Source: Rhodoferax sp. (GTDB taxonomy: Bacteria > Pseudomonadota > Gammaproteobacteria > Burkholderiales > Burkholderiaceae_C). Taken from it: 33,925 bases of DNA. Positions 3,987-16,705 of the stretch are shown one piece after another. Numbering within the stretch: the first letter of the stretch is position 1; the number at the start of each line of letters is the position of its first letter. The stretch covers positions 1-33,925 of the forward strand of contig JAGOUM010000033.1 of assembly GCA_018061265.1 (NCBI GenBank), given 5' to 3'. The position numbers and the translations under genes were made by a program. A model generated the notes under the pieces. It made no database searches, was not told where the DNA came from, and was given only the letters and a program-made list of their open reading frames with translations.

Positions 3987-5345
3987 ATGAAACACTTATT
4001 TCATGTTCAGCTGACAAGGCTGGTTTTCCTGCTGTTTCTGGTGGTCCTGGGTGCTTGTGGCGGGGGAGGGTCCGGTAGCGACACAACCCCGGTGACACCG
4101 GCGGCTGACGCCTGCTCAGCGTCGTCGCAAAAAACCTGGCTGCGCGACACCATGCGTCAGACCTATTTCTGGGCGGGGCTGGCGCCTGACCCGGCACCTT
4201 TGGATGGGCAGAGTCTGGCCAGCTATTTTTCGACCCTGCTGTTTACAGGTGACGCACAAACGCCGGCTGATCACTGGAGCTTCATTGCCGACCAGGCGGC
4301 ATACGAGCAGTTTTTTGAGGAAGGCACCACGCTGGGGTATGGGCTGGCGGTGAATGCACTCGAGGGCCAGCTGCCGCTGAAAATCCGCTGGGTGGACCCG
4401 GGTGGCCCTGCCGAGGCGGCCGGATTGGCACGTGGTGACGTCATCCTGTCGATCAATGGTGTGTCAGTCGCGCAGCTGTTGGCCTTGGGTGACTATTCGG
4501 TGTTGAGTCCGGCAAAGGCTGGGGATGTGCTGACACTGCAGATGACCACCGCGCAGGGCAGTCGAACAGTCTCCGTCACGGCGGCCACTTTTGCGCTGAC
4601 GCCGGTGCCGGTGGCCCGGGTGCTGGAGCTGGCCGATGGCAGACGTGTGGGTTACCTGATGCTGAAAGACTTTGTGACCCAGGCGCGCGCACCCTTGGCC
4701 AGTGCCTTTGCTGCGTTCAGGGCGGCAGGCGCCAGTGAACTGGTGCTGGACCTGCGCTACAACGGGGGGGGTCTGATTTCGGTGGCTGACACACTGGCGT
4801 CCCTGGTGGCGGGTCAGGCGCACCACGGCCAGTTGTTCACCGCGCTGGTTTACAACCCGAGACAGGCTCGGGCCAACGTCAATTACTGGCTGGAGGCCAC
4901 TACACCCGGGTTCTCGCGGGTGGTGATTTTGAACGGGCGACGTACCTGTTCAGCCAGCGAACTGCTTGCCAATGGCCTCAGGCCATATGTGGAGGTGGTC
5001 ATCCTTGGGGAGTCGACCTGTGGCAAGCCCGTCGGATTCACGCCGGTTGACCATTGCGACAGCACGGTCAGTGCGGTCAATTTTGAGGCGGTCAACGCGC
5101 GAGGTGAGGGCCGCTACTACAGCGGACTGGCACCCACCTGTGCCCTGGCAGAAGATTTTGCCGGCGCGCTGGGTGATCCCTCCGAAGTGCTGCTGGCCGC
5201 AGCTGGCCATTACCTGGTCAACGGGCAGTGTCCGGCCCCTGTGGCGCAGACCGAGATGCAGCGGCGCGCGCTGGCAGCACGCCACACGACCGCAATCAGG
5301 CAGCTTGTTGAGCCTGGTGGTTTTGTCGGCATGCGGGCGGATTGA
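3987..5345 (+). CDS. S41-family (C-terminal processing) peptidase, PDZ-containing lipoprotein
   Basis: This is a 452-residue secreted serine peptidase. I chose the ATG at 3987 rather than an in-frame start at 3936 because it directly begins a lipoprotein signal peptide: Lys-His, a hydrophobic core, and lipobox LGAC with C24 as the lipidated residue, followed by a Gly/Ser-rich linker. A PDZ domain occupies about 115-200 (GGPAEAAGLARGDVILSINGV). The S41 catalytic core carries LDLRYNGGG at 255-262, the nucleophile region CSASE at 321-325 and the lysine of CGKPVG at 346-350, so it looks catalytically competent. Eight or more cysteines fit an extracytoplasmic location. It ends in a TGATG overlap with the acyltransferase. 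A role in processing envelope proteins is likely, but the substrate is unknown. Confidence 0.88.
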   Translation: MKHLFHVQLTRLVFLLFLVVLGACGGGGSGSDTTPVTPAADACSASSQKTWLRDTMRQTYFWAGLAPDPAPLDGQSLASYFSTLLFTGDAQTPADHWSFIADQAAYEQFFEEGTTLGYGLAVNALEGQLPLKIRWVDPGGPAEAAGLARGDVILSINGVSVAQLLALGDYSVLSPAKAGDVLTLQMTTAQGSRTVSVTAATFALTPVPVARVLELADGRRVGYLMLKDFVTQARAPLASAFAAFRAAGASELVLDLRYNGGGLISVADTLASLVAGQAHHGQLFTALVYNPRQARANVNYWLEATTPGFSRVVILNGRRTCSASELLANGLRPYVEVVILGESTCGKPVGFTPVDHCDSTVSAVNFEAVNARGEGRYYSGLAPTCALAEDFAGALGDPSEVLLAAAGHYLVNGQCPAPVAQTEMQRRALAARHTTAIRQLVEPGGFVGMRAD

Positions 5346-6895
5346 TGGGCACGACCATGATCGACACACCCTCTGAAGTTGAGGCGCTCAGTGGTCTGGA
5401 CGGTGTTTTTCTGAATCTTGAAACATTGGCCACTCCGATGCATGTGGGTTCGTTGCATACCTTTGAGGTGCCGGCCACGTATGACAGAGATTTTTTTACC
5501 GACGTCAAGACCCTGCTGACCCAGCGCATGGTGCCAGTGTTGCGCCGACGCCTGTCGGCCATGCCGCTGCAAATGGCCAATCCGGTGTGGCTGGACACGG
5601 CGGTCGATCTGGACCAGCATATTGAGCGTATACACATCCCGGCCCCGGGGACACGCGCGCAGCTCGAAACGGTGGTGGCCAACCTGCATGCCGACCTGCT
5701 CAACCGCGCCCGCCCCTTGTGGATGATGTATGTGCTCGATGGTCTGGCCAGTGGTGAGCGGGCCTATTACTTCAAAATCCACCATGCCATGCTGGATGGT
5801 CAGGCAGGTAACGCGCTGGCGGGTGCCTTGTTTGACACGGCACCCCATGAACTCCTGGCCAATATCCAACCCGCGGTCAATCGTGCCAGTGCGTCCAGAC
5901 CCGGGGCACTCAAGCTGGTGGCGGCTGCGTTTCGCCATGATGCGGTGCAATACGTCAAGCTGGTGCGGGACTTGCCTGGAGTCGTGCGCACGCTGGCGGG
6001 TCTGGTGCGCAGCTCTGGCGGTAAAGCGGTGACTGACCCGTCTGCAAAGGCCGCGGCTGGGCTGGCTGGCAAACCGAGTCGCAGCGGCGCGGCGTTTGCG
6101 CCGCGCACGCCGCTCAATGTGGCAATCACCCGTGAACGCGGCTTTGCCGCTGAATCGGTGGCGCTCGCCGAGCTCAAGGCAATGGCTGCTGCCACCGGGG
6201 CAACGGTGAACGATGTGGTGCTGTCGCTGTGTGGCGGTGCGCTGCGCCGCTACCTGGCACGCCACGATACGCTGCCCAAAAAGTCGCTGATCGCCTCAAT
6301 GCCGATTTCGTTGCGCGACAAAGGCGACACCGGCTTTCACACCAAGGCCACGCTGAGCCTGGTCAGCCTGGCCACCCATATCAAAGACCCGCTCAAGCGC
6401 CTGCGGGCGGTTCGCGGCCATACCAGTGCCACCAAGGACGTTGCGCGTCGCGCCAGATCGGTGATTCCGACCGACTTTCCGTCGATTGGTGTGCCTTGGC
6501 TGATGGGCACGCTGGCCAACCTGTACGGCCGGGGCGGTGTGTCACAGGTGTTGCCACCACTGGCCAATGTGCTGATTTCCAACGTTCCCGGGCCAACGCT
6601 GCCGCTGTATGTTGGCCAGGCGCGGATGACGGGCTATTGGCCGTTGTCGATCGTTGAGCACGGTGTGGGTCTCAACATCACTTTGATGAGTTACGCTGGC
6701 CGGGTCTACCTGGGTTTTACCGTGGCGCGAAGCGCCGTGCCGGATGTGCGCCAACTGGCCGAAGACTTTATGTTCGCCTATGCAGAACTTAAAGCCGCGG
6801 TGCTGAAACCCGCCAGTGCCAAAACAGTGCGCAAGCCGCCCACCAGGCCAGCGGCCGGGCGGGCGTCCCTTCAGTCTGCCAAGGTGTCGTCATGA
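5345..6895 (+). CDS. Wax ester synthase/diacylglycerol acyltransferase (WS/DGAT), copy 1
   Basis: This 516-residue bifunctional acyltransferase should esterify fatty alcohols or diacylglycerol with acyl-CoA to make storage wax esters or triacylglycerol at the inner membrane. The N-terminus (LSGLDGVFLNLET...PMHVGSL) is typical of the family. The catalytic motif HHAMLDG is intact at 146-152. Family motifs RPLW (about 123-126), NDVVLSLCGGALRRYL and SNVPGP follow. The start is the ATG at 5345, overlapping the preceding stop as TGATG. A second in-frame ATG at 5357 is possible. It is followed with a 4-bp overlap by a lipase-like gene and then a second WS/DGAT, suggesting a dedicated neutral-lipid locus. 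The C-terminal 35 residues are Lys/Pro/Ala-rich. Confidence 0.92.
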   Translation: MGTTMIDTPSEVEALSGLDGVFLNLETLATPMHVGSLHTFEVPATYDRDFFTDVKTLLTQRMVPVLRRRLSAMPLQMANPVWLDTAVDLDQHIERIHIPAPGTRAQLETVVANLHADLLNRARPLWMMYVLDGLASGERAYYFKIHHAMLDGQAGNALAGALFDTAPHELLANIQPAVNRASASRPGALKLVAAAFRHDAVQYVKLVRDLPGVVRTLAGLVRSSGGKAVTDPSAKAAAGLAGKPSRSGAAFAPRTPLNVAITRERGFAAESVALAELKAMAAATGATVNDVVLSLCGGALRRYLARHDTLPKKSLIASMPISLRDKGDTGFHTKATLSLVSLATHIKDPLKRLRAVRGHTSATKDVARRARSVIPTDFPSIGVPWLMGTLANLYGRGGVSQVLPPLANVLISNVPGPTLPLYVGQARMTGYWPLSIVEHGVGLNITLMSYAGRVYLGFTVARSAVPDVRQLAEDFMFAYAELKAAVLKPASAKTVRKPPTRPAAGRASLQSAKVSS

Positions 6896-7716
6896 TGTCT
6901 GCCGCCAAAGTTGTCCGCCACCGTCATGTCGGGGCACCCCATTTGCTGCACTCTCTGCTGGAGCCACGGGCCTTTGTTGAGGCCGCATTGCTGCCGATGA
7001 CATTGCCACTGCTGATGCAGGCACCACAAGGCGACGGCCATCCGGTATTGCTGTTGCCAGGTTTTATGGCCGATGAAAAGTCGCTGTTTGTCTTGAAGGC
7101 GTTCTTGCAGCGCAAGGGGTACGACGTACACACTTGGGGTTTGGGCCGAAACCTGGGTTTTCGCAGCAAACATGCCAGCGCCTTGCCGCAAAAAATCCGC
7201 TACCTGCACCATGTGACCGGGCGCAAGGTCAGCCTGGTCGGCTGGAGCTTGGGCGGCGTGTTTTCACTCTACGGCGCGGAGAACTCGCTGGAGTGTGTGC
7301 GCAGTGTTATCACGCTGGGCAGCCCGGTGAGCATGGACGCACAGGGCAGCCAGTCGCCCGCCGCTGTCAAGGCGCTGTACCGGCTGGTGTCCCACCGCCA
7401 GGGCAGCAATGCCCACGCCATGGCACCGCGCGCCAAGGGCCTGCGTGAACACCGGCGGCTGGCGATCCCGACGAGCTGCCTGTACTCGCTGGGTGATGGG
7501 GTGGTGCCGCCGCAGGAAGCCACCATCGACGGGGACCCCGCGCTGCACGAGAACATCCGCGTCCCGGGCAGCCACCTTGGCCTGGGTTTTAACGGTGTGG
7601 TGCTGGCTGTGGTGGCAGACCGGCTGGCCCAAGCCGAGGGCCAATGGACTCCGTTCAAGCCGGCTGGCCTGCTGGCGCAGGTGTGGCGGGTGATGCCTGC
7701 CGATGCCGGAGCCTGA
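6892..7716 (+). CDS. Alpha/beta-hydrolase, lipase-like
   Basis: This 274-residue protein has an alpha/beta-hydrolase fold. The oxyanion region VLLLPGF is at about 52-58 and the nucleophile elbow GWSLGG at 117-122 with Ser119. Asp202 in LGDGVVP and His228 in GSHLG complete the likely triad. No signal peptide is visible. The protein resembles intracellular lipases or esterases of the PGAP1/lipase class 2 kind. It overlaps the upstream acyltransferase stop by 4 bp (ATGA) and is followed by a second acyltransferase. Hydrolysis or remodelling of the neutral lipids made by its neighbours is the simplest reading, but the substrate is inferred from context only. Confidence 0.85.
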   Translation: MMSAAKVVRHRHVGAPHLLHSLLEPRAFVEAALLPMTLPLLMQAPQGDGHPVLLLPGFMADEKSLFVLKAFLQRKGYDVHTWGLGRNLGFRSKHASALPQKIRYLHHVTGRKVSLVGWSLGGVFSLYGAENSLECVRSVITLGSPVSMDAQGSQSPAAVKALYRLVSHRQGSNAHAMAPRAKGLREHRRLAIPTSCLYSLGDGVVPPQEATIDGDPALHENIRVPGSHLGLGFNGVVLAVVADRLAQAEGQWTPFKPAGLLAQVWRVMPADAGA

Positions 7717-7720
7717 TCAC

Positions 7721-9253
7721 ATGCCACACGCCCCAAAACTCCCGTTGCGCCAGCTTGGCGAAAGTGACGCGGCGTTTATCTACTCGGACACGGAACACGC
7801 CAATTCCAACGTCACGCTGCTGCACATTTATGACCAGACCACCGCACCGGGTGGGGTGGTGCGTTTTAAGCAGATCCTGGCGCACCTCGAGACACGCCTG
7901 AGCCAGTTGCCGATCTTCCGGCAAAAAGTCCTGCGCGTGCCGCTGGACCTGGACTATCCGTATTGGGTTGAAGACGAAAACTTTGACATTGAGTACCATG
8001 TGCGACACATCGCATTGCCCAAGCCGGGGGACTGGCGCCAGTTCTGCATCCAGGCCTCACGGATCCACGCGCGCCCACTCGACCTGCAGCGCCCCTTGTG
8101 GGAGATGTATGTGATCGAGGGACTGGACAGCTTTCTCGATTTGCCTTTGGGCAGTTTTGCGGTTCTTCTCAAGGTGCATCACGCCGCTGTTGATGTGGCG
8201 CATGACCAGGAAATCAGCCGCTTGCTGCATGACCTGATACCCGATCCACCGCCCGATCCGCCACCGCGGCCATGGTTCCCGCAGTCACCACCAGGCACGC
8301 TGGCATTGATGTGGCGCGCCGGTTTTCATGCGGCGAATTTTCCCTTGCGTCTGGCCGGGTCCGTGTCCCAGGGACTCGGGCTGATGGCGCTGAGTGTCAA
8401 GACGCTTGCAAGTGAGTTCTGGCGTCGGCCGAACGATTTTCCGGCCACGCGGTTCAACACGGTGGTCTCGGCGCACCGGGTTTTTGATACCCGCCGCTTT
8501 GCGCTGGCAGATGTGGATCGAGTACGTTCATTGGTGGATGGCGCCACGGTGAACGATGTGGTGCTGGCACTGTGTGCCGGAGGCCTGCGTCGTTACCTCG
8601 AACTGCAGTGCGAGTTGCCAGACGAAAGCTTGCTGGCCGCAGCCCCGATCGCCATTCAAACCCATCAAGGTCCACCAGGCGACGGATTCTCGTGGGTACG
8701 CGTGAGTCTGCAGACCACTGAGCCCGACGCACTCAAGCGCCTGCAGGCCATTCAGGCGACCACCTCGTCCACCGAGGTGGCAAGAAAAGCCGCCGATGCA
8801 CGCGGGTTGACCAGTTTGGCCAGCCAGGCACCCCCGCTGGCCATTGCCGCGACCAGCAAAATGATGCGCGCGGCATCGGCCCGTCTGGGTGACTGGACGC
8901 CGCTGGCCAATTGCAGCGTCACCCATGTGCCAGGACCGCCGGGGGCACTTTACCTGCGCGGGGCACGTTTGACCTATCTCTCGGCCATCATGCCGATCAC
9001 CGATGGCATGGGGCTGGTGTTTTCGGTGACCGGTTACAACGAGATGCTGGTGCTCTCGTTCACCTCCTGCTACGAACAGCTACCCGACCCCGAGGTGCTG
9101 GCGCAGTGTCTGCGTGACAGCTTTCAGGAGTATTTGGCGCTGGCCAAGCCGAAACACAGGCCGCAGGCAGCGGTACCCAGCGCTGGTTTCAAGCCCCACA
9201 CTCCCCGCAAAAAAACCACCTCCAGAGTTGCACCTGCTCGCCAAATGGACTGA
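7721..9253 (+). CDS. WS/DGAT acyltransferase, copy 2 with variant active-site motif
   Basis: This 510-residue WS/DGAT-family protein is clearly related to copy 1 but diverged from it. The start at 7721 is preferred over an in-frame ATG at 7703 because GGAG at 7708-7711 sits nine bases before it. The catalytic histidines and aspartate are present (HHAAVDV at 153-159), but the usual glycine after Asp158 is valine. RPLWEMYVIEGL, NDVVLALCAGGLRRYL and a VPGPPG motif are recognisable. A proline-rich stretch (about residues 174-190) follows the active-site region. A paralogue with different acyl acceptor preference, or a partner subunit, is plausible. The sequence cannot show whether the Gly-to-Val change alters activity. 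Confidence 0.9.
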   Translation: MPHAPKLPLRQLGESDAAFIYSDTEHANSNVTLLHIYDQTTAPGGVVRFKQILAHLETRLSQLPIFRQKVLRVPLDLDYPYWVEDENFDIEYHVRHIALPKPGDWRQFCIQASRIHARPLDLQRPLWEMYVIEGLDSFLDLPLGSFAVLLKVHHAAVDVAHDQEISRLLHDLIPDPPPDPPPRPWFPQSPPGTLALMWRAGFHAANFPLRLAGSVSQGLGLMALSVKTLASEFWRRPNDFPATRFNTVVSAHRVFDTRRFALADVDRVRSLVDGATVNDVVLALCAGGLRRYLELQCELPDESLLAAAPIAIQTHQGPPGDGFSWVRVSLQTTEPDALKRLQAIQATTSSTEVARKAADARGLTSLASQAPPLAIAATSKMMRAASARLGDWTPLANCSVTHVPGPPGALYLRGARLTYLSAIMPITDGMGLVFSVTGYNEMLVLSFTSCYEQLPDPEVLAQCLRDSFQEYLALAKPKHRPQAAVPSAGFKPHTPRKKTTSRVAPARQMD

Positions 9254-9256
9254 GTC

Positions 9257-10156
9257 ATGCAGACCACCGGCGACTGGCCCATTGAATATGAGGAGCTGGG
9301 TGACCCTGCGTACCCGGCGATCGTGTTGATCATGGGTCTTGGCATGCAACTCACCAGCTGGCCAGAGGCGATGTGCCTGGCCCTGGTTGCCGGGGGATAC
9401 CGAGTGGTGCGGATGGATAACCGGGACAGTGGTTTGTCGGCACGCGCGCCGAATGGTCAATTGCCCAGGCTGTGGCAAGCGGTGGCGGCCTCACTGCTGC
9501 ATCTGCCGCTGCGCGTACCTTACCGCCTGAACGACATGGCGGGTGATGTTCTGCGGGTGATGGATGCATTACAAATCGAGCGTGCGCATGTCGTCGGGGC
9601 GTCAATGGGCGGCATGATTGCCCAAGTGCTGGCTGCCCAATCGCCTGAGCGCTTGTTGAGCCTGACGTCCATCATGTCGTCCAGTGGCAATCCGCGCCTG
9701 CCGCTGCCCACCCGAAAAGCGCGCAAGGCGCTGTTGGGTCGTCCAGCTGACCCTGACAATCCGGAGTCGGTGGTCGATCATCTGGTGGAGGTGTTTGGGG
9801 TGATTGGCAGTCCGGCTTACCCCGAACCCGAGGCGAACCTGCGCGAGCGTGTGCGTCGGGGGGTGTTGCGCGCTTACGATCCGCAAGGTGTCAGGCGCCA
9901 GTTGCTGGCGGTGATTGCCAGTGGTGACCGCCGCAAACTGCTGCGCCACATTCAGGCACCCACACTGGTGATTCACGGTCGAGCCGACCCGCTGGTGCCG
10001 CTGGCTGCCGGGCAGGATACCGCAGCGCATGTGCCAGGTGCCCGCTTGCTGGTCATTGACGGCATGGGGCACGACCTGCCAGGTGCATTGGTGCCTCAGA
10101 TATCAGCGGCTATCCTGGCCCATTGCGCGGCAACAAGCCTGGGCCGGGTCAATTAG
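9257..10156 (+). CDS. Alpha/beta-hydrolase
   Basis: This 299-residue soluble hydrolase begins 3 bp after the second WS/DGAT, so it is almost certainly in the same transcript. The nucleophile elbow GASMGG is at 114-119 (Ser116). Asp244 in HGRADPLVP and His272 in GMGHDLP complete a convincing triad. An MDNRDSG motif at about 53-59 is typical of the proline iminopeptidase/esterase-like branch. It may hydrolyse acyl esters as part of the lipid cluster, but the family is too broad to name a substrate. It is the last gene of the cluster. About 195 bp without a recognisable gene follow. Confidence 0.88.
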   Translation: MQTTGDWPIEYEELGDPAYPAIVLIMGLGMQLTSWPEAMCLALVAGGYRVVRMDNRDSGLSARAPNGQLPRLWQAVAASLLHLPLRVPYRLNDMAGDVLRVMDALQIERAHVVGASMGGMIAQVLAAQSPERLLSLTSIMSSSGNPRLPLPTRKARKALLGRPADPDNPESVVDHLVEVFGVIGSPAYPEPEANLRERVRRGVLRAYDPQGVRRQLLAVIASGDRRKLLRHIQAPTLVIHGRADPLVPLAAGQDTAAHVPGARLLVIDGMGHDLPGALVPQISAAILAHCAATSLGRVN

Positions 10157-11068: not shown

Positions 11069-12451
11069 CTAATTGGATGCATCCAGCGCCTTGATCTTGC
11101 GGTAAAGCGTGCGCTCGCTGATGCCGAGTTGTGCCGCCAGTTCGGCCCGGCTACCAGGGTGGGTTTTGAGCATATCGTCCAGTGCGGCGCGCTCGGCCAA
11201 CTTTAATGACCCCGGCATCACCTTTGGCATGGTGGCGGCGCTGCTGGTTTGGGTCAGGTTGTCCTCACTGCGCACCTGATCATGCGGTGCTGCAATTGCC
11301 GCTGTGGCGCTGAACGCTGGACGACGGCCAGTGCGCAGGGCTTGCTCGACATGATTTGCTTCCAGCGTGTCGCCGTCGCACAGCAGCGCTGATCGTTCCA
11401 GCAGATTACGCAGCTCGCGCACATTGCCGGGATAGTCCTGTGCCTGTAGCAGACTCAGTGCGTCGTCACTGATTTCCAGCTTGCGCTGCGCCGCAACCCG
11501 TTTGAGCAGCGCCACAGCCAGCAAGGCGATGTCACCCCGTCGCTCACGCAGCGCCGGAAGGTGAATGGGAAAAGTGCTCAGCCGGTAATACAGGTCTTCG
11601 CGAAATCGTCCCTGCGCCACCATCTGATCGAGGTCGCGGTGGGTGGCCGAGACAACCCGGATATCGGCGTGACGCTGCTCGGTGCTGCCAACGCGCCGGT
11701 AGGTGCCGGTTTCAAGCAGCCGCAGCAGCTTGACTTGCATCGTCAGGGGGATGTCGCCCACCTCGTCCAAAAACAAAGTGCCACCGCTGGCCGCCTCGAC
11801 CAGGCCACCACGCGAGGTGTTGGCCCCGGTAAAGGCGCCACGCTCATGACCAAACAGCTCTGATTCAAACAGGTTCTCAGGCAGGCTTGAGCAGTCCACC
11901 GGCACGAGGGCCCGGTGTGAGCGGCTGCTGGCCTCGTGCACCGCGCGCGCCACCAGTTCCTTGCCGGTACCCGACTCGCCCAATAGCAAAACGGTGGCCA
12001 TGGCCGGTGCGACCCGCGCCACCATGGACAGCATCAGCTGAAACACGGGTGAGCGTCCGATCAAGCCCTGAGCAGCGGCCTGACCCTGGGCCACACGCAG
12101 CGACTCCATTTTTTCAATAAAAAACGCCTGTTCGCCCTCGCCGTCGAGCAGCGGCGCAAGCTCGATATTGACGTATTCCTCACCCTTGGCCGTGTGGTGC
12201 AGGTGCAGAACCCGTTCGCGTTGACCCGACTCGCGTGCCTTCACCAAGGGGCAGGACTCACCGGCCTGATCACACGGGACGCTGAAATGATGCGACACCT
12301 CAAAACAGGTGCGCCCGACCACGCTGCGATCAGGGCTGAACTGGCGCCGGTACGCGGCGTTGGCTGCCAGAATGCGGTATTGCGTGTCAAACAAAATATG
12401 GGGCTCTGGCAAGCCCTCCAGAAACGACATCAGTTCGGGCAAGGGTTTCAT
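11069..12451 (-). CDS. Sigma-54-dependent transcriptional activator (PAS-AAA-Fis)
   Basis: This 460-residue enhancer-binding protein opens sigma-54 RNA polymerase complexes using ATP. An N-terminal PAS-like sensor spans about 10-115, with a cysteine/histidine cluster: C49, H54, H55, C60 and C67-Pro. The AAA+ domain runs from about 131 to 365, with Walker A GESGTGKE at 158-165, the sigma-54-contacting GAFTGA loop at 205-210 and Walker B GGTLFLDE at 223-230. A Fis-type helix-turn-helix closes the protein (about 420-458). There is no receiver domain, so it is probably a one-component sensor. It diverges from the Rieske-globin-CcoG operon, which has a good -24/-12 promoter, making that operon its probable target. 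The signal may be redox, NO or metal, but this is inferred. Confidence 0.93.
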
Positions 12452-12464
12452 GGCACAAGTCTAC

Positions 12465-12497
12465 GCCAAATGACTGCCAGCCTGACATATTTGGCAG
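12465..12497. promoter_or_regulatory. Candidate enhancer (upstream activating) dyads for the sigma-54 activator
   Basis: Two overlapping perfect inverted repeats are visible. GCCAAAT (12465-12471) pairs with ATTTGGC (12489-12495), and CTGCCA (12474-12479) pairs with TGGCAG (12492-12497). They lie about 90-120 bp upstream of the -24/-12 promoter, the usual distance for an enhancer-binding protein site. They also sit 14-46 bp upstream of the activator's own start, allowing autoregulation. Confidence 0.5.
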
Positions 12498-12584
12498 ATT
12501 TATGAAATCCCCATGTCATACAGTAGTCGATCATTTTTTCTGTAACTCTATGAATTAATTCGAATTTCTTGATTTTTTCCGAGG

Positions 12585-12600
12585 TGGCACGGATATTGTT
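12585..12600 (+). promoter_or_regulatory. Sigma-54 (-24/-12) promoter of the Rieske-globin-CcoG operon
   Basis: TGGCACG at 12585-12591, four bases, then TTGT at 12596-12599 matches the sigma-54 consensus TGGCACG-N4-TTGC except for the last base. Transcription should begin around 12610. A ribosome-binding site GGAG at 12620-12623 and the Rieske ATG at 12630 follow. The divergent neighbour is a sigma-54 activator with an intact GAFTGA loop, which strongly supports the call. Confidence 0.88.
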
Positions 12601-12629
12601 AAAAGTGTTCACCTTTCCCGGAGTACCAC

Positions 12630-13256
12630 ATGACGACTGCAAACACCTTTGCCGCCCTGGCAGCCAATGCACACGAGCACGATGCCGAACGGCGTACCTG
12701 GCTTCTGCTCACCGCCGCGGCAGGTGCCGTTGCGGCGGGCGGCGTGGCGCTGCCTTTGGTGGCCAGTTTTTCCCCTAGCGAGCGTGCACTGGCGATGGGT
12801 GCAGCGGTTGAGGCGGACATTTCGGACATCGCTCCAGGTGCGTTCAAGACCATTGAGTGGCGGGGTAAACCCGTCTGGGTGATGCGGCGAACCCCTGAAA
12901 TGCTGGCCTCGCTGCCGCTGCTTGACAGCCAGTTGGTGGATCCGGCATCAGAAGTCAAATCACAGCAACCCGAATACGCGCAAAACCCGCACCGGTCCAT
13001 CAAGCCGGAGTTCATGGTGACGGTGGGCATTTGCACCCACCTTGGCTGTTCGCCCACCTCGGTGCCGGCGGGCACCAACAATCCGAGCGTTGGTGCCGAC
13101 TGGAAAGGTGGTTTTTTCTGCCCCTGCCACGGCTCGACGTTTGATCTGGCGGGCCGTGTCTTCAAGAACAAGCCTGCCCCGACCAATCTTGAAGTGCCGC
13201 CGCACAAGTATCTGTCGGATGGCCGATTGCTGATTGGCGACGACAAGGCGGCCTGA
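12630..13256 (+). CDS. Rieske [2Fe-2S] protein of cytochrome bc1 type, orphan copy
   Basis: This 208-residue protein is homologous to the ubiquinol-cytochrome c reductase iron-sulfur subunit. An N-terminal twin-arginine-like segment (ERRTW at 20-24) precedes a hydrophobic anchor at about 25-46. The cluster-binding boxes are intact: CTHLGC at 135-140 and CPCHGS at 164-169, so C135, H137, C164 and H167 ligate the cluster, and C140 and C166 can form the disulfide. There are no cytochrome b or c1 genes beside it, so it is likely a second Rieske gene that can be exchanged into bc1 under particular conditions. Alternative Rieske isoforms of this kind are known in Rubrivivax gelatinosus. It is the first gene behind the sigma-54 promoter. 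Confidence 0.93.
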   Translation: MTTANTFAALAANAHEHDAERRTWLLLTAAAGAVAAGGVALPLVASFSPSERALAMGAAVEADISDIAPGAFKTIEWRGKPVWVMRRTPEMLASLPLLDSQLVDPASEVKSQQPEYAQNPHRSIKPEFMVTVGICTHLGCSPTSVPAGTNNPSVGADWKGGFFCPCHGSTFDLAGRVFKNKPAPTNLEVPPHKYLSDGRLLIGDDKAA

Positions 13257-13258
13257 GC

Positions 13259-13675
13259 ATGAATACTGCAGTTGCCGTGACACCATACGAACGCCTGGGT
13301 CAAGAGGCAGGCATTCGCCAACTGGTCTCGCGTTTTTACTTCCTGATGGATGAACTGCCCGAGGCTTTCACTGTGCGCCAGATGCATCCCGAGAGCCTGA
13401 CAGGCAGCGCACAAAGCCTGTTTGAGTTTTTGTCGGGCTGGCTGGGTGGGCCACCCCTGTATGAGCGAAAGAAAGGCCACCCGCGGCTGCGCATGCGCCA
13501 TGCGCCCTACACAATCAACAAGGTGGTACGTGACGAGTGGATGTTATGCATGACACAAGCCATCTCCGAGCAGGTGACTGACCTGGACTTTCGCCAATGG
13601 CTGCTTGGCACCTTTTCGCAGATGGCGGACCATCTGTTGAATGCAGGTGACGCTGCGGCTTGTCCGGCGCATTGA
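13259..13675 (+). CDS. Group II truncated hemoglobin
   Basis: This 138-residue heme protein starts 2 bp after the Rieske stop. Diagnostic residues are visible: Phe26-Tyr27 at positions B9-B10, the proximal histidine His81 in the motif GHPRLRMRHAPYTI, and Trp94 (G8) in RDEWMLCM. These define the group II (TrHbO/GlbO-like) class. Such proteins bind O2 and NO and can detoxify NO or peroxide or deliver oxygen to respiration. Co-transcription with a Rieske protein and CcoG points to a respiratory or NO-defence role. The exact ligand chemistry cannot be told from sequence. Confidence 0.93.
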   Translation: MNTAVAVTPYERLGQEAGIRQLVSRFYFLMDELPEAFTVRQMHPESLTGSAQSLFEFLSGWLGGPPLYERKKGHPRLRMRHAPYTINKVVRDEWMLCMTQAISEQVTDLDFRQWLLGTFSQMADHLLNAGDAAACPAH

Positions 13676-13704
13676 GTTGACCCGACACAGACCGGAGGCA
13701 GGGC

Positions 13705-14331
13705 ATGTATTTCAGAATATTGAACGACGACGCCAGTGGTGAGCTGACCTACCTGCTGGCTGACCCGAGCGCCCGGGAAGCGGTACTGATTGATCCCCAC
13801 GGCCGTGACTTGCCGGTTTTGCAAGCCCTACTGGCTGAGCGCGATTTGCGATTGCGCTGGGTTTTGCGCACCCATCATCATGACGAATTACAGCCGCGCG
13901 AACCCGCTTTGTTGGCGAAACTGGCGGCACCCGTGGTGCAAGGTGATGCCCCATACCCGGTCAATCCATCGGTCTTGCCATTTGGGGATGAACTGATTCA
14001 TGTGGTGCCGACACCCGGACACACCGGCTTCTGCCTGAGTTTTTCCTGGCGCGACAGGTTCTTTTGTGGTGGCCTGCTGGCGGTGACTGCCTGCCCGCAT
14101 CAGTCACGCCCGCAGGTGCCGCAGGCCTTGTGGGACAGCGTGACGCAGAAAGTTTTTACACTTCCGGATGAAACGCTGTTGTTTGCCGGGCACGAGCGAC
14201 GCGCACGCGCGGTCAGCACGGTGCTGGAGCAACGCCGCTGGCATCCATTTTTTTCCGGATTGACGCGCGACGAATTCCTCGCGCACATGGCGGCACTGCC
14301 AGAACAGCAGATACTCACACCCACTTTTTGA
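13705..14331 (+). CDS. Metallo-beta-lactamase-fold protein with degenerate metal site
   Basis: This 208-residue protein has the overall MBL/glyoxalase II-persulfide dioxygenase layout, but several metal ligands are changed. The usual THxHxDH box is THHHDEL at 56-62, so the first two histidines (57, 59) remain while the aspartate becomes Glu61 and the last histidine Leu62. PGHT with His106 is present. The bridging aspartate of the FxGD motif is replaced (FCGG at 120-123). His163 in AGHE remains. A mononuclear site or a non-catalytic role is therefore likely. A good ribosome-binding site GGAGG at 13694-13698 supports the start. It sits between the truncated hemoglobin and ccoG in the sigma-54 operon. 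Confidence 0.82.
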   Translation: MYFRILNDDASGELTYLLADPSAREAVLIDPHGRDLPVLQALLAERDLRLRWVLRTHHHDELQPREPALLAKLAAPVVQGDAPYPVNPSVLPFGDELIHVVPTPGHTGFCLSFSWRDRFFCGGLLAVTACPHQSRPQVPQALWDSVTQKVFTLPDETLLFAGHERRARAVSTVLEQRRWHPFFSGLTRDEFLAHMAALPEQQILTPTF

Positions 14332-14341
14332 GGAATGACAC

Positions 14342-15778
14342 ATGACTAACAGCACTAAAGAAGGCAAGAAGGTGATTCCCATCGCCGCAGCCGAGCCCGA
14401 AGAGGAGATGATCTCGCTGTACGCAGCGCACAAGAAGATCTATCCGCGCAGTGTTTCGGGTGTGTTCTCCAACTGGCGCTGGATCATGGTTTGGGTCACG
14501 CAGATCATTTTTTATGGTCTGCCGTGGATTGAGTGGGGGCAGCGCCAGGCGGTTCTGTTTGATTTAAGTGTGCGCCGCTTCTATATCTTTGGCTTGGTGC
14601 TGTACCCGCAGGACTTTATTTACCTCACTGGTTTGATGATCATTGCGGCTTTGTCGCTGTTCTTGTTCACCGCAGTGGCGGGGCGCTTGTGGTGCGGCTA
14701 TGCGTGCCCGCAAACCGTCTACACCGAGATTTTCCTGTGGTTCGAAAAACTGGTCGAAGGTGATCGCGCAGCACGTATACGTCGCGATGAAGCCGGGATG
14801 TCGGGTGAAAAGTTCGGGCGTAAAGCGGCCAAACACTTCTTGTGGATCGTGTTTTCATTTTGGACCGGCTTCACCTTTGTTGGCTATTTTGTGCCCATGC
14901 GTGAAATGGCAGGGGCTTTCCTGGGCGGTGAACTGGCTGCATGGGAATTTTTCTGGGTATTCTTCTACGGCTTTGCCACCTACGGTAATGCCGGTTTCAT
15001 GCGCGAACAGGTTTGCCTGCACATGTGCCCGTATGCACGGTTTCAGAGTGCCATGTTTGACAAGGACACCCTGATCGTCACCTATGACGCTGAACGCGGT
15101 GAGCCACGTGGAGCGCGTTCCAAAAAAGCCGACCCGAGCAAGCTCAACCTCGGTGCGTGTGTGGACTGCAGTCTGTGTGTGCAGGTCTGTCCGACCGGTA
15201 TCGATATTCGCAACGGATTGCAGTATCAGTGTATTGGCTGCGGTGCCTGCGCGGATGTGTGTGACACGGTGATGGACAAAGTGGGTTATGCGCGTGGCCT
15301 GGTCAAGTACTCAACCGAAAACGCCATGATCAACCATTGGAGTGCCAAACAGACGATGCGCCATGTGTTCCGGCCACGGGTCTTGGTCTACACCAGTATT
15401 CTGATGGCCATTGTGCTGGCGATTTTTGTCAGTCTGGCCATGCGTACACCGTTCAAAGTGAATGTGGTGCGAGACCGCGGTGTGATGGCTCGGGTGGTGG
15501 AAGCCGGCAAGACCGAGAACGTGTACCGACTGCAGGTCATGAACGCGACCGAGGCAGACCAGCGTTACCGCTTTACCGTCAACGGTATGCCCAGTCTGGT
15601 GATCACTTCAGACAATACGGTCAATGTGGAGTCGACCAAAGCGGTGACGGTGCCAGTACGGGTGCAGGCAGACTTTGGTGCCGCCAGTCCGGGCTCCCAT
15701 GAAATTCACTTTGAGATCGAGTCCCTGGACAGTCCTGGAAAATTGATCGAGAAGTCGACCTTCATCGTACCGAAGTAG
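14342..15778 (+). CDS. ccoG: Cytochrome c oxidase accessory protein CcoG (RdxA/FixG family)
   Basis: This 478-residue polyferredoxin-like membrane protein is associated with assembly of cbb3 cytochrome oxidase. Members reduce Cu(II) to Cu(I) for the binuclear centre. Hydrophobic segments lie at about 46-62, 82-113, 164-184, 198-212 and 346-366. The WCGYACPQTVYTEIF signature is at 117-131. Two [4Fe-4S] motifs are complete: C273, C276, C279, C283 and C297, C300, C303, C307. A C-terminal immunoglobulin-like domain follows (about 370-478). It is normally beside ccoNOPQ and ccoHIS. Here it is separate and co-transcribed with the Rieske and globin genes, 10 bp after the MBL gene. Confidence 0.94.
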   Translation: MTNSTKEGKKVIPIAAAEPEEEMISLYAAHKKIYPRSVSGVFSNWRWIMVWVTQIIFYGLPWIEWGQRQAVLFDLSVRRFYIFGLVLYPQDFIYLTGLMIIAALSLFLFTAVAGRLWCGYACPQTVYTEIFLWFEKLVEGDRAARIRRDEAGMSGEKFGRKAAKHFLWIVFSFWTGFTFVGYFVPMREMAGAFLGGELAAWEFFWVFFYGFATYGNAGFMREQVCLHMCPYARFQSAMFDKDTLIVTYDAERGEPRGARSKKADPSKLNLGACVDCSLCVQVCPTGIDIRNGLQYQCIGCGACADVCDTVMDKVGYARGLVKYSTENAMINHWSAKQTMRHVFRPRVLVYTSILMAIVLAIFVSLAMRTPFKVNVVRDRGVMARVVEAGKTENVYRLQVMNATEADQRYRFTVNGMPSLVITSDNTVNVESTKAVTVPVRVQADFGAASPGSHEIHFEIESLDSPGKLIEKSTFIVPK

Positions 15779-15808
15779 TTCAGGCAGCGCGAACTGTGGA
15801 CCTGTTCG

Positions 15809-16705
15809 ATGGGTGTTGACGGGTCCTGGTTGTGGCTGATCGCTGCATGTATGTTCGGTTTATATGGGGTGCGCGGGCTTGCGCACCATGTCATTCTGCG
15901 GGGCTTGCGAGCCCCGCGTGTCGTTCATGAACAGGACTTTTTAGCCATTGACCCGGGTGGTAGAAAAATCCGCTGCCCAACAAAGGGTGGCAAAACCTTG
16001 TTTGGCTGGTTCTCGAAGGGCACAGATGCGCTGCCTGGGCCAGCGGTACTGGTGATGCATGGCTGGGGTGCCAACGCGGCGATGATGTCGGCCTGTCTTG
16101 CGCCCCTGCGGGCGGCGGGCTTTTTGGTTTTGTTGCTGGATGCACGTTGCCATGGTCTGAGTGATGACGAGACGTTCACCTCGCTGCCGAGATTTGCCGA
16201 GGACATCGGCGCTGGGCTGGATTGGTTGCGCAAGCAACCAGTGGTGGATCCCCTGCGCCTGGCGGTGATCGGGCATTCGGTGGGCGCGGGCGCTGCGCTC
16301 TTGAGCGCCACGCGTCACCCGCAGTTGCGGGCGGTGGTCAGTATCAGTGCCTTTGCCCACCCCAATGAGGTGATGCGTCGTTTTTTGTCTTCCCATGGTG
16401 TGGTGTACCCGGTCATTGGCTGGTACGTCCTGCGCCATGTGCAGCGGGTCATTGGTGCACGCTTTGATGACATTGCGCCAGTCAATACCATTGTGCGGGT
16501 CGCGTGCCCGGTGCTGCTGGTGCACGGTACGCAGGACGAAATGGTGCCGTTCGACGATGCCAGGCGGCTCTATGCAGCCGCCAGAGCGGGCGGCGTGAGC
16601 CTGATGGCTGTGGCCGGCCATCATGACCCCAGCGATGCGCTGGTGGAGGAACTGCCGCAGATTGTTGATTTTTTGCAGCAAGCGATGTGTACCGATCAGC
16701 CCTGA
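15809..16705 (+). CDS. Alpha/beta-hydrolase with N-terminal membrane segment
   Basis: This 298-residue protein has a hydrophobic N-terminal segment (about 6-30) that probably anchors it to the inner membrane. The hydrolase domain shows HGWGAN (84-89), DARCHGLS (111-118), the nucleophile elbow GHSVGAG at 155-161 (Ser157), Asp243 in HGTQDEMVP and His271/272 near the end. It resembles prolyl-oligopeptidase-like or BD-FAE-type esterases of unknown substrate. It lies 30 bp after ccoG on the same strand with no visible terminator between, so it may be the last gene of the sigma-54 operon, but a functional link is not evident. Confidence 0.82.
   Translation: MGVDGSWLWLIAACMFGLYGVRGLAHHVILRGLRAPRVVHEQDFLAIDPGGRKIRCPTKGGKTLFGWFSKGTDALPGPAVLVMHGWGANAAMMSACLAPLRAAGFLVLLLDARCHGLSDDETFTSLPRFAEDIGAGLDWLRKQPVVDPLRLAVIGHSVGAGAALLSATRHPQLRAVVSISAFAHPNEVMRRFLSSHGVVYPVIGWYVLRHVQRVIGARFDDIAPVNTIVRVACPVLLVHGTQDEMVPFDDARRLYAAARAGGVSLMAVAGHHDPSDALVEELPQIVDFLQQAMCTDQP

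Follow-up and report, generated by a model that had tools for sequence, protein, structure and literature searches.

We analyzed a 33,925-nucleotide (nt) stretch of DNA from Rhodoferax sp. (contig JAGOUM010000033.1 of assembly GCA_018061265.1, here called the window), which is contig C114 of a 4.24-Mb draft genome (89.5% complete, 261 contigs). The subject of this report is an operon at positions 11069 to 16705 whose activator is, by sequence, of the FisR type. An earlier reading made from the sequence alone had described a sigma-54 activator diverging from a five-gene run behind a -24/-12 promoter, and all of these features were found as follows.

11069 to 12451, minus strand: FisR-type sigma-54 activator (PAS, AAA+, and Fis helix-turn-helix [HTH]); matches Sigma54_activat, PAS_4, and HTH_8; cysteine triad Cys49, Cys60, and Cys67
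12483 to 12496, plus strand: predicted FisR operator (upstream activator sequence), TGACATATTTGGCA, one base off the genus consensus TGYCA-N4-TGRCA
12585 to 12600, plus strand: predicted -24/-12 promoter, TGGCACGGATATTGTT, by pattern match and genus conservation
12630 to 13256, plus strand: orphan bc1-type Rieske protein (TIGR01416; motifs CTHLGC and CPCHGS)
13259 to 13675, plus strand: truncated (2-on-2) hemoglobin (Bac_globin; nearest solved chain, 2xyk)
13705 to 14331, plus strand: degenerate metallo-beta-lactamase (MBL)-fold protein of the persulfide dioxygenase family (His57 and His106 kept; Gly123 at the iron-ligand Asp position; Cys121 and Cys130 conserved)
14342 to 15778, plus strand: CcoG, a cbb3 assembly factor and cupric reductase (TIGR02745; the genome's only strong match)
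15809 to 16705, plus strand: alpha/beta hydrolase, an accessory gene (Hydrolase_4; found in 17 of 43 genomes)

Profile searches of the activator recovered the architecture of FisR, with a sigma-54 AAA+ domain, an N-terminal regulatory domain of the PAS_4 family, and a C-terminal Fis HTH. The PAS domain bears the three conserved regulatory cysteines of FisR in the arrangement C-x10-C-x6-C, a spacing shared by Cupriavidus metallidurans and present in 40 of 41 distinct hits from the genus and in 21 of 23 distinct distant hits, the genome's own second copy included. The three hits that lack it are 274 to 360 amino acids long, and the matching stretch begins near the AAA+ domain. The triad of Cupriavidus pinatubonensis FisR has this spacing; FisR was reportedly studied by Li in 2017. 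The closest match to the activator in a plasmid collection, in a record that is unannotated there, came from C. metallidurans CH34 (50% identical over 98%), and this relative bears the triad as well. It adjoins true sulfide-oxidizing genes: on its divergent side lie a persulfide dioxygenase (PDO; solved matches 4ysk at 3e-140 and 9g8t at 4e-114) and a sulfide-quinone reductase (SQR; human SQR chains at 7e-93), for which the TGGCACGGGTTTTG promoter reads TGGCACGGGTTTTGAGT, and on its other side lies a TauE-type homologue. The CH34 operator, TGCCAACACTGCCA, has a second half-site one base off TGRCA. On the strength of the triad, and of a promoter and a near-identical operator that recur at the CH34 fisR-pdo-sqr locus, we assign the window activator to the FisR type. 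According to reviews, FisR of Cupriavidus senses sulfane sulfur by means of three conserved cysteines (PMC9774590; see also PMC12170894).

The sequence-only reading knew of no described pathway that combines these genes under sigma-54. For the regulator such a pathway, that of FisR, does exist, because the activator has the FisR triad and its relatives adjoin genes for persulfide dioxygenase and SQR. The literature searched yielded none for the targets seen here. These same data bear on the possibility that the operon answers nitric oxide (NO) or nitrosative stress, with a NorR-like activator and with the globin and cytochrome bd conferring NO tolerance. Truncated hemoglobins and cytochrome bd are indeed linked with NO resistance, but the activator scored 307.2 bits against the NorR model NF003451, whose cut-off is 476, and it carries a PAS_4 domain with the FisR triad. 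Moreover, its relatives adjoin PDO, SQR, or TauE genes, and the globin was found in only 17 of the 43 genus genomes described below. NO sensing by a NorR-like activator was rejected on score and gene context, and an NO-responsive operon appears highly improbable. The genome encodes a second FisR-type activator with the triad (locus L119; contig C215, 4498 to 10637), which adjoins DsrE-type and FAD/4Fe-4S proteins and, by eye, a TusA-like open reading frame (ORF), i.e., a sulfur context. The genus promoter pattern is absent from the 420 nt upstream of that activator.

To place the operon among its relatives, we surveyed 89 genomes of the genus, of which 43 had an MBL match at an E value of ≤1e-40 (27 of 50 among the better genomes). 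The MBL gene served as the anchor for counting genes, and the counts are conditional on its presence; because of this anchoring, and because several contigs end inside the locus, the counts of neighbors are floor values. Forty of these 43 genomes have the activator upstream of the MBL gene in divergent orientation, and 37 have CcoG no more than 400 nt downstream of that gene. The order thus co-occurs with the activator, as the sequence-only reading had proposed to check, and its loss among relatives, which would have counted against that reading, was contradicted. Among other same-strand genes within 8 kb, the truncated hemoglobin and the hydrolase were each found at 17 of the 43 loci, the Rieske gene at 16, cydB at 15, cydA at 13, a TSUP/TauE exporter gene at 12, and an SQR-like gene at 7. 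The fullest operon (L045 and also L176) reads fisR, then divergently cydA, cydB, Rieske, ybgE, SQR-like, truncated hemoglobin, MBL, ccoG, and hydrolase; its SQR-like protein falls under the NCBIfam cut-offs and has sulfide-quinone reductases as its best solved matches. In one scan of a collection of named genomes (21 loci), relatives of the locus were mostly Rhodoferax. An order-wide survey matched the regulatory domain at 1e-15 in 79 of 399 genomes, and twenty high-scoring loci, representing 19 genomes, were fetched as a distant set. CcoG was near fisR in 7 of these, cydAB in 4, a PDO-family gene in 4, and a Rieske gene in 3, one of which (L128) lies downstream of fisR and not on the divergent side.

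Of the 110 sites in the window that match TGGCACNNNNNTTGY with two or fewer mismatches, the promoter, described earlier as near perfect, is alone in having none. Since such loose sites are no more common than chance (99.9 expected), we dropped the single site as evidence and rest the case on conservation. Of 41 distinct regions from the genus, 37 carry the pattern TGGCAY-N5-TTG no more than 420 nt from the start of fisR (expected, 0.13); its distance is 134 to 186 nt in all 37, and one of the four misses is a nonorthologous activator hit. The operator pattern TGYCA-N4-TGRCA was present no more than 130 nt away in 36 of 40 such regions (expected, 0.02; both expectations are from mononucleotide shuffles); the window copy, one base off, begins at 12483, 88 nt ahead of the -24 element. 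The operator motif was derived from the same regions in which it was then counted, after removal of three nonorthologous activator hits, and independent checks came from two other promoters of the genome and from the Cupriavidus and Pseudoalteromonas loci. Within the genome, cydA (contig C234) has the operator TGCCACTATTGACA ahead of it, 85 nt from the promoter TGGCACGCTAATTGATT; for a DUF6858-DUF2202 gene pair on contig C40, TGCCAAAAGTGGCA and TGGCACGATTATTGATT are separated by 106 nt. Eight stretches of the genome were scanned, and operator-promoter pairs turned up only at these two sites and in the window. cydB is split across the ends of contigs C234 and C40, and the cydAB genes sit apart from the window locus yet carry an operator and a promoter of this type. 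Pseudoalteromonas xiamenensis (L279, NZ_CP099918.1) has an activator 43% identical to that of the window, with operator TGCCACTTATGACA and promoter TGGCATAGGACTTG. Whole-genome scans for operator plus promoter covered the TGCCA and TGTCA forms (the window form is TGACA) at a gap of 75 to 105 nt, which leaves the C40 gap of 106 outside; the TGCCA form gave three places, one of them cydA and the others C20:38754 and C48:8691, and the TGTCA form gave none. The promoter pattern alone occurs at 306 places in the genome, versus 47 for a reversed control, and is therefore unspecific by itself.

Two side observations concern these sites. The DUF6858-DUF2202 pair (C40, 1734 to 2887, minus strand; L121) has its operator and promoter arranged as at the window operon, and DUF6858-like ORFs were also seen by eye in the distant FisR loci L133 and L139. 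At the P. xiamenensis locus, a gammaproteobacterial FisR-type activator diverges from cydP-cyd-cydX-ybgE.

The first gene of the run had been described as a bc1-type Rieske subunit without its cytochromes, and this was borne out. The protein matches TIGR01416 at 214.8 bits (cut-off, 97.4) and has the CTHLGC and CPCHGS motifs, and there is no cytochrome b or c1 gene beside it in the window. The genome's other Rieske gene is on contig C164, and the ORFs after it look by eye like cytochromes b and c1. Copies 71 to 100% identical to the window protein were found in 16 of the 89 genomes, in every case at the FisR/MBL locus, whereas the main other copies are 61 to 69% identical, with some below 50%. 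In a tree, the 16 window-type proteins are set apart by a branch (support, 95/90) and adjoin a FisR-linked Rieske protein from another genus (L126); the motifs are intact in all 34 rows. By its placement in this tree, the window Rieske protein belongs to a clade separate from the bc1 copy, i.e., it is a paralogue. The Rubrivivax Rieske protein is said to have been treated by Ouchane in 2005. The nearest known parallel is the exchangeable second Rieske protein of Rubrivivax gelatinosus and Rhodospirillum rubrum, which is functionally redundant and, like that of the window, is encoded outside the bc1 cluster with its motifs intact (PMC6256036). Unlike that protein, the window type is tied to a FisR-type activator.

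The MBL protein had no Pfam match, and its GloB and Blh matches fell far under the cut-off. Its best solved matches were 9rhq, 4ysb, and 4chl by sequence and 4ysb, 5ve5, and 4chl by fold, with 9g8t (PaPDO) at rank 11; the Foldseek match of the predicted structure to 4ysb (E value, 3.7e-15) indicates an ETHE1-type fold. The model is of middling quality (mean predicted local distance difference test [pLDDT] score, 69.2; residues 148 to 181 under 50), and we therefore make no claim about metal-site geometry. Sequence and modeled fold together place the protein in the persulfide dioxygenase family. The metal ligands of PaPDO are His71, His146, and Asp163 (PMC12856154), and this His-His-Asp facial triad is broken in the window protein, which has Gly in place of Asp. 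Both ligand histidines are kept in all 43 distinct MBL sequences, in contrast to the aspartate, which is Gly or Ala in 40 of the 43 and is retained in L055, L056, and L181; the Thr two residues ahead of it is Cys in 41 of the 43. This confirms the changed metal ligands noted earlier.

Loss of an iron ligand raises the possibility that the protein is a persulfide dioxygenase by descent that is now being lost, without a function of its own. Four genomes (G427, G442, G441, and G466) keep a CcoG of the FisR-operon clade; in three of them there are broken MBL remnants, which in one case amount to no more than two short fragments, and in G427 no MBL gene was detected. These cases favor decay. Against it, the median Nei-Gojobori dN/dS was 0.151 (range, 0.059 to 0.343; 195 pairs with dS of <1.5), many columns are near invariant over the 43 distinct sequences, and a new cysteine is conserved in 41 of them. 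In addition, no FisR match was found within 6.8 to 7.5 kb upstream at the three remnant loci, the extent of the search, which suggests that decay of the MBL gene accompanies absence of the regulator; the contig of G427, which stops 2.1 kb upstream, is uninformative on this point. In-frame stops in the MBL genes of G422 and G406 proved to be normal gene ends. The MBL gene is under purifying selection despite the loss of the iron ligand, and we think it rather unlikely that the protein is merely decaying.

CcoG (TIGR02745, 515.7 bits; cut-off, 316.7) had been described as lying away from any cbb3 genes, and this is the case: ccoN is on contig C91, and no CcoG match occurs in the 18 kb fetched around it. 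A CcoG match at 1e-60 was found in 70 of the 89 genomes; the window genome has one, beyond which it gave only a 27% partial match (E value, 2.9e-4). Twenty-eight genomes had a CcoG match without an MBL match, and of the 20 loci fetched from these, 13 have ccoN-ccoO-ccoP adjoining CcoG, 4 are the FisR-operon-clade loci described above, and 3 show neither pattern, although one of these 3 (L255) has a partial activator hit. In a 48-row tree, the FisR-operon clade (18 rows, support 98/97) includes those four loci and L161 and joins a ccoNOP-linked clade (14 rows, 96/91) with 97/97 support. The window CcoG is therefore of the same lineage as that of the ccoNOP-ccoG cbb3 locus but lies inside a FisR operon and not behind ccoP. 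The FisR-operon CcoGs of G423 and G452 nest inside the ccoNOP-linked clade and share 98% and 86% identity, respectively, with their own genome's ccoNOP-linked copy, and the FisR-linked CcoGs of family f21 and of G264 are placed elsewhere. Because FisR-linked CcoGs fall at separate places, the tree indicates that CcoG entered FisR operons more than once, a statement that leaves the direction in the main clade aside. Twelve further CcoG copies were fetched: 10 of them, 52 to 56% identical, lack neighboring cco genes, and the other 2 are ccoNOP linked. In Rhodobacter capsulatus, CcoG is a cupric reductase required for full cbb3 activity (PMC7558416).

An orphan respiratory subunit together with CcoG and a bd-type oxidase could also be read as a response to cyanide that yields cyanide-tolerant respiration. 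The model for this is the MpaR cluster of Pseudomonas aeruginosa, where a respiratory poison, cyanide, induces an orphan cbb3 subunit, in an organism that also has a cyanide-insensitive oxidase (PMC10790758). There, however, the regulator is unrelated (MpaR is predicted to be of the MocR type) and the poison is cyanide and not sulfide; in the FisR relative, a near-identical operator stands ahead of genes for PDO and SQR. A cyanide response thus seems very unlikely.

The globin matches Bac_globin at 2.1e-32, and its nearest solved chain, 2xyk, is a 2-on-2 hemoglobin, in agreement with the truncated hemoglobin described earlier; we presume that it belongs to group II. The last gene product is a hydrolase, as described (Hydrolase_4), whereas the membrane anchor ascribed to it has as its sole basis an N terminus that looks hydrophobic by eye. 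Elsewhere in the window, the region from 5342 to 10156 contains two long ORFs that resemble wax ester synthase/acyltransferases by eye, plus hydrolase genes; comparison with the profile library covered 9257 to 10156.

From the features established by sequence, namely, the gene order and its conservation, the promoter, the operator, the triad, the Rieske paralogy, and the iron-ligand loss, we infer that the window probably carries a FisR-type operon for respiratory remodeling triggered by sulfide or sulfane sulfur. Sulfide would raise the level of reactive sulfane sulfur (persulfides and polysulfides), which would modify the three cysteines of the PAS domain, and the activator, bound at the upstream operator, would then drive sigma-54 polymerase at 12585. 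The output would be an alternative Rieske subunit for bc1, the truncated hemoglobin, the persulfide dioxygenase-like protein without its iron ligand, CcoG, and the hydrolase. CcoG would keep copper reduced for cbb3 assembly, and the activator or its paralogue may also drive cytochrome bd (cydAB) at its separate locus. The bd oxidase could then serve sulfide-resistant respiration, with the Rieske protein and CcoG providing renewal and the MBL protein acting in a nonenzymatic role. A. baumannii up-regulates CydAB with sulfide (PMC7315123). The earlier proposal, in which a sigma-54 switch serves to protect or remodel the bc1-cbb3 chain, fits in its outline, since cydAB, an alternative Rieske gene, and ccoG recur behind this promoter type; the signals that it named (NO, low oxygen, and Fe-S damage) are unsupported, given the NorR score, the FisR triad, and the PDO and SQR neighbors.

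Compared with the FisR pdo-sqr operon of Cupriavidus and of A. baumannii (A1S_1707-1711), the window operon is alike in its divergent sigma-54 activator with PAS and Fis domains, in the triad, promoter, and operator shared with CH34, and in the TauE-family gene of 12 of the 43 genus loci. It differs in that its targets are respiratory parts (Rieske, CcoG, and globin, with cydAB in relatives). FisR typically diverges from pdo and sqr genes, and here the only such gene is the degenerate PDO relative.

Several points weigh against a sulfide-triggered operon. With no SQR gene in the window and a PDO relative lacking its iron ligand, no classic sulfide-oxidizing enzyme of FisR operons is intact there. 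A. baumannii FisR, which lacks the triad cysteines, still responds to sulfide (PMC7315123), which means that the signal cannot be read from the triad alone. In the distant set, the promoter pattern was present in just 10 of 22 regions and the operator pattern in just 4 of 21, and the window and CH34 operators are each one base off the consensus. The CH34 dioxygenase belongs to the SdoA/PA2915 branch, while the window MBL protein is nearest to 9rhq and 4ysb instead. At L161 (genome G403), the MBL gene and CcoG are intact and have operator and promoter, but there is no FisR match within 8.1 kb upstream. The L161 operon may be regulated in trans.

A bolder version, which we offer tentatively and with some doubt, is that maturation of cbb3 and bc1 has come under the control of sulfane-sulfur sensing, with CcoG and a second Rieske protein supplied on demand when sulfide poisons copper and Fe-S parts, and with the MBL protein converted from an enzyme to a two-histidine, cysteine-bearing partner that handles persulfide or copper. 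If true, this would newly connect the sensing of sulfur with the assembly of oxidases.

Among titles and abstract openings, with most subscription papers outside reach, we recognized no description of this operon, and we found no paper on a FisR binding site or upstream activator sequence. FisR has been described as a switch for sulfide-oxidizing genes. Here, a regulator of the FisR kind and its predicted promoter precede genes for parts of the respiratory chain, throughout one genus and in some of the sampled members of the order. One clade keeps a persulfide dioxygenase relative without the usual iron site. Should CcoG and a second Rieske protein prove to be under sulfide control, exposure to sulfide would be tied directly to the assembly of the high-affinity oxidase and of bc1, and the dioxygenase relative would become available for study as a defined pseudoenzyme.

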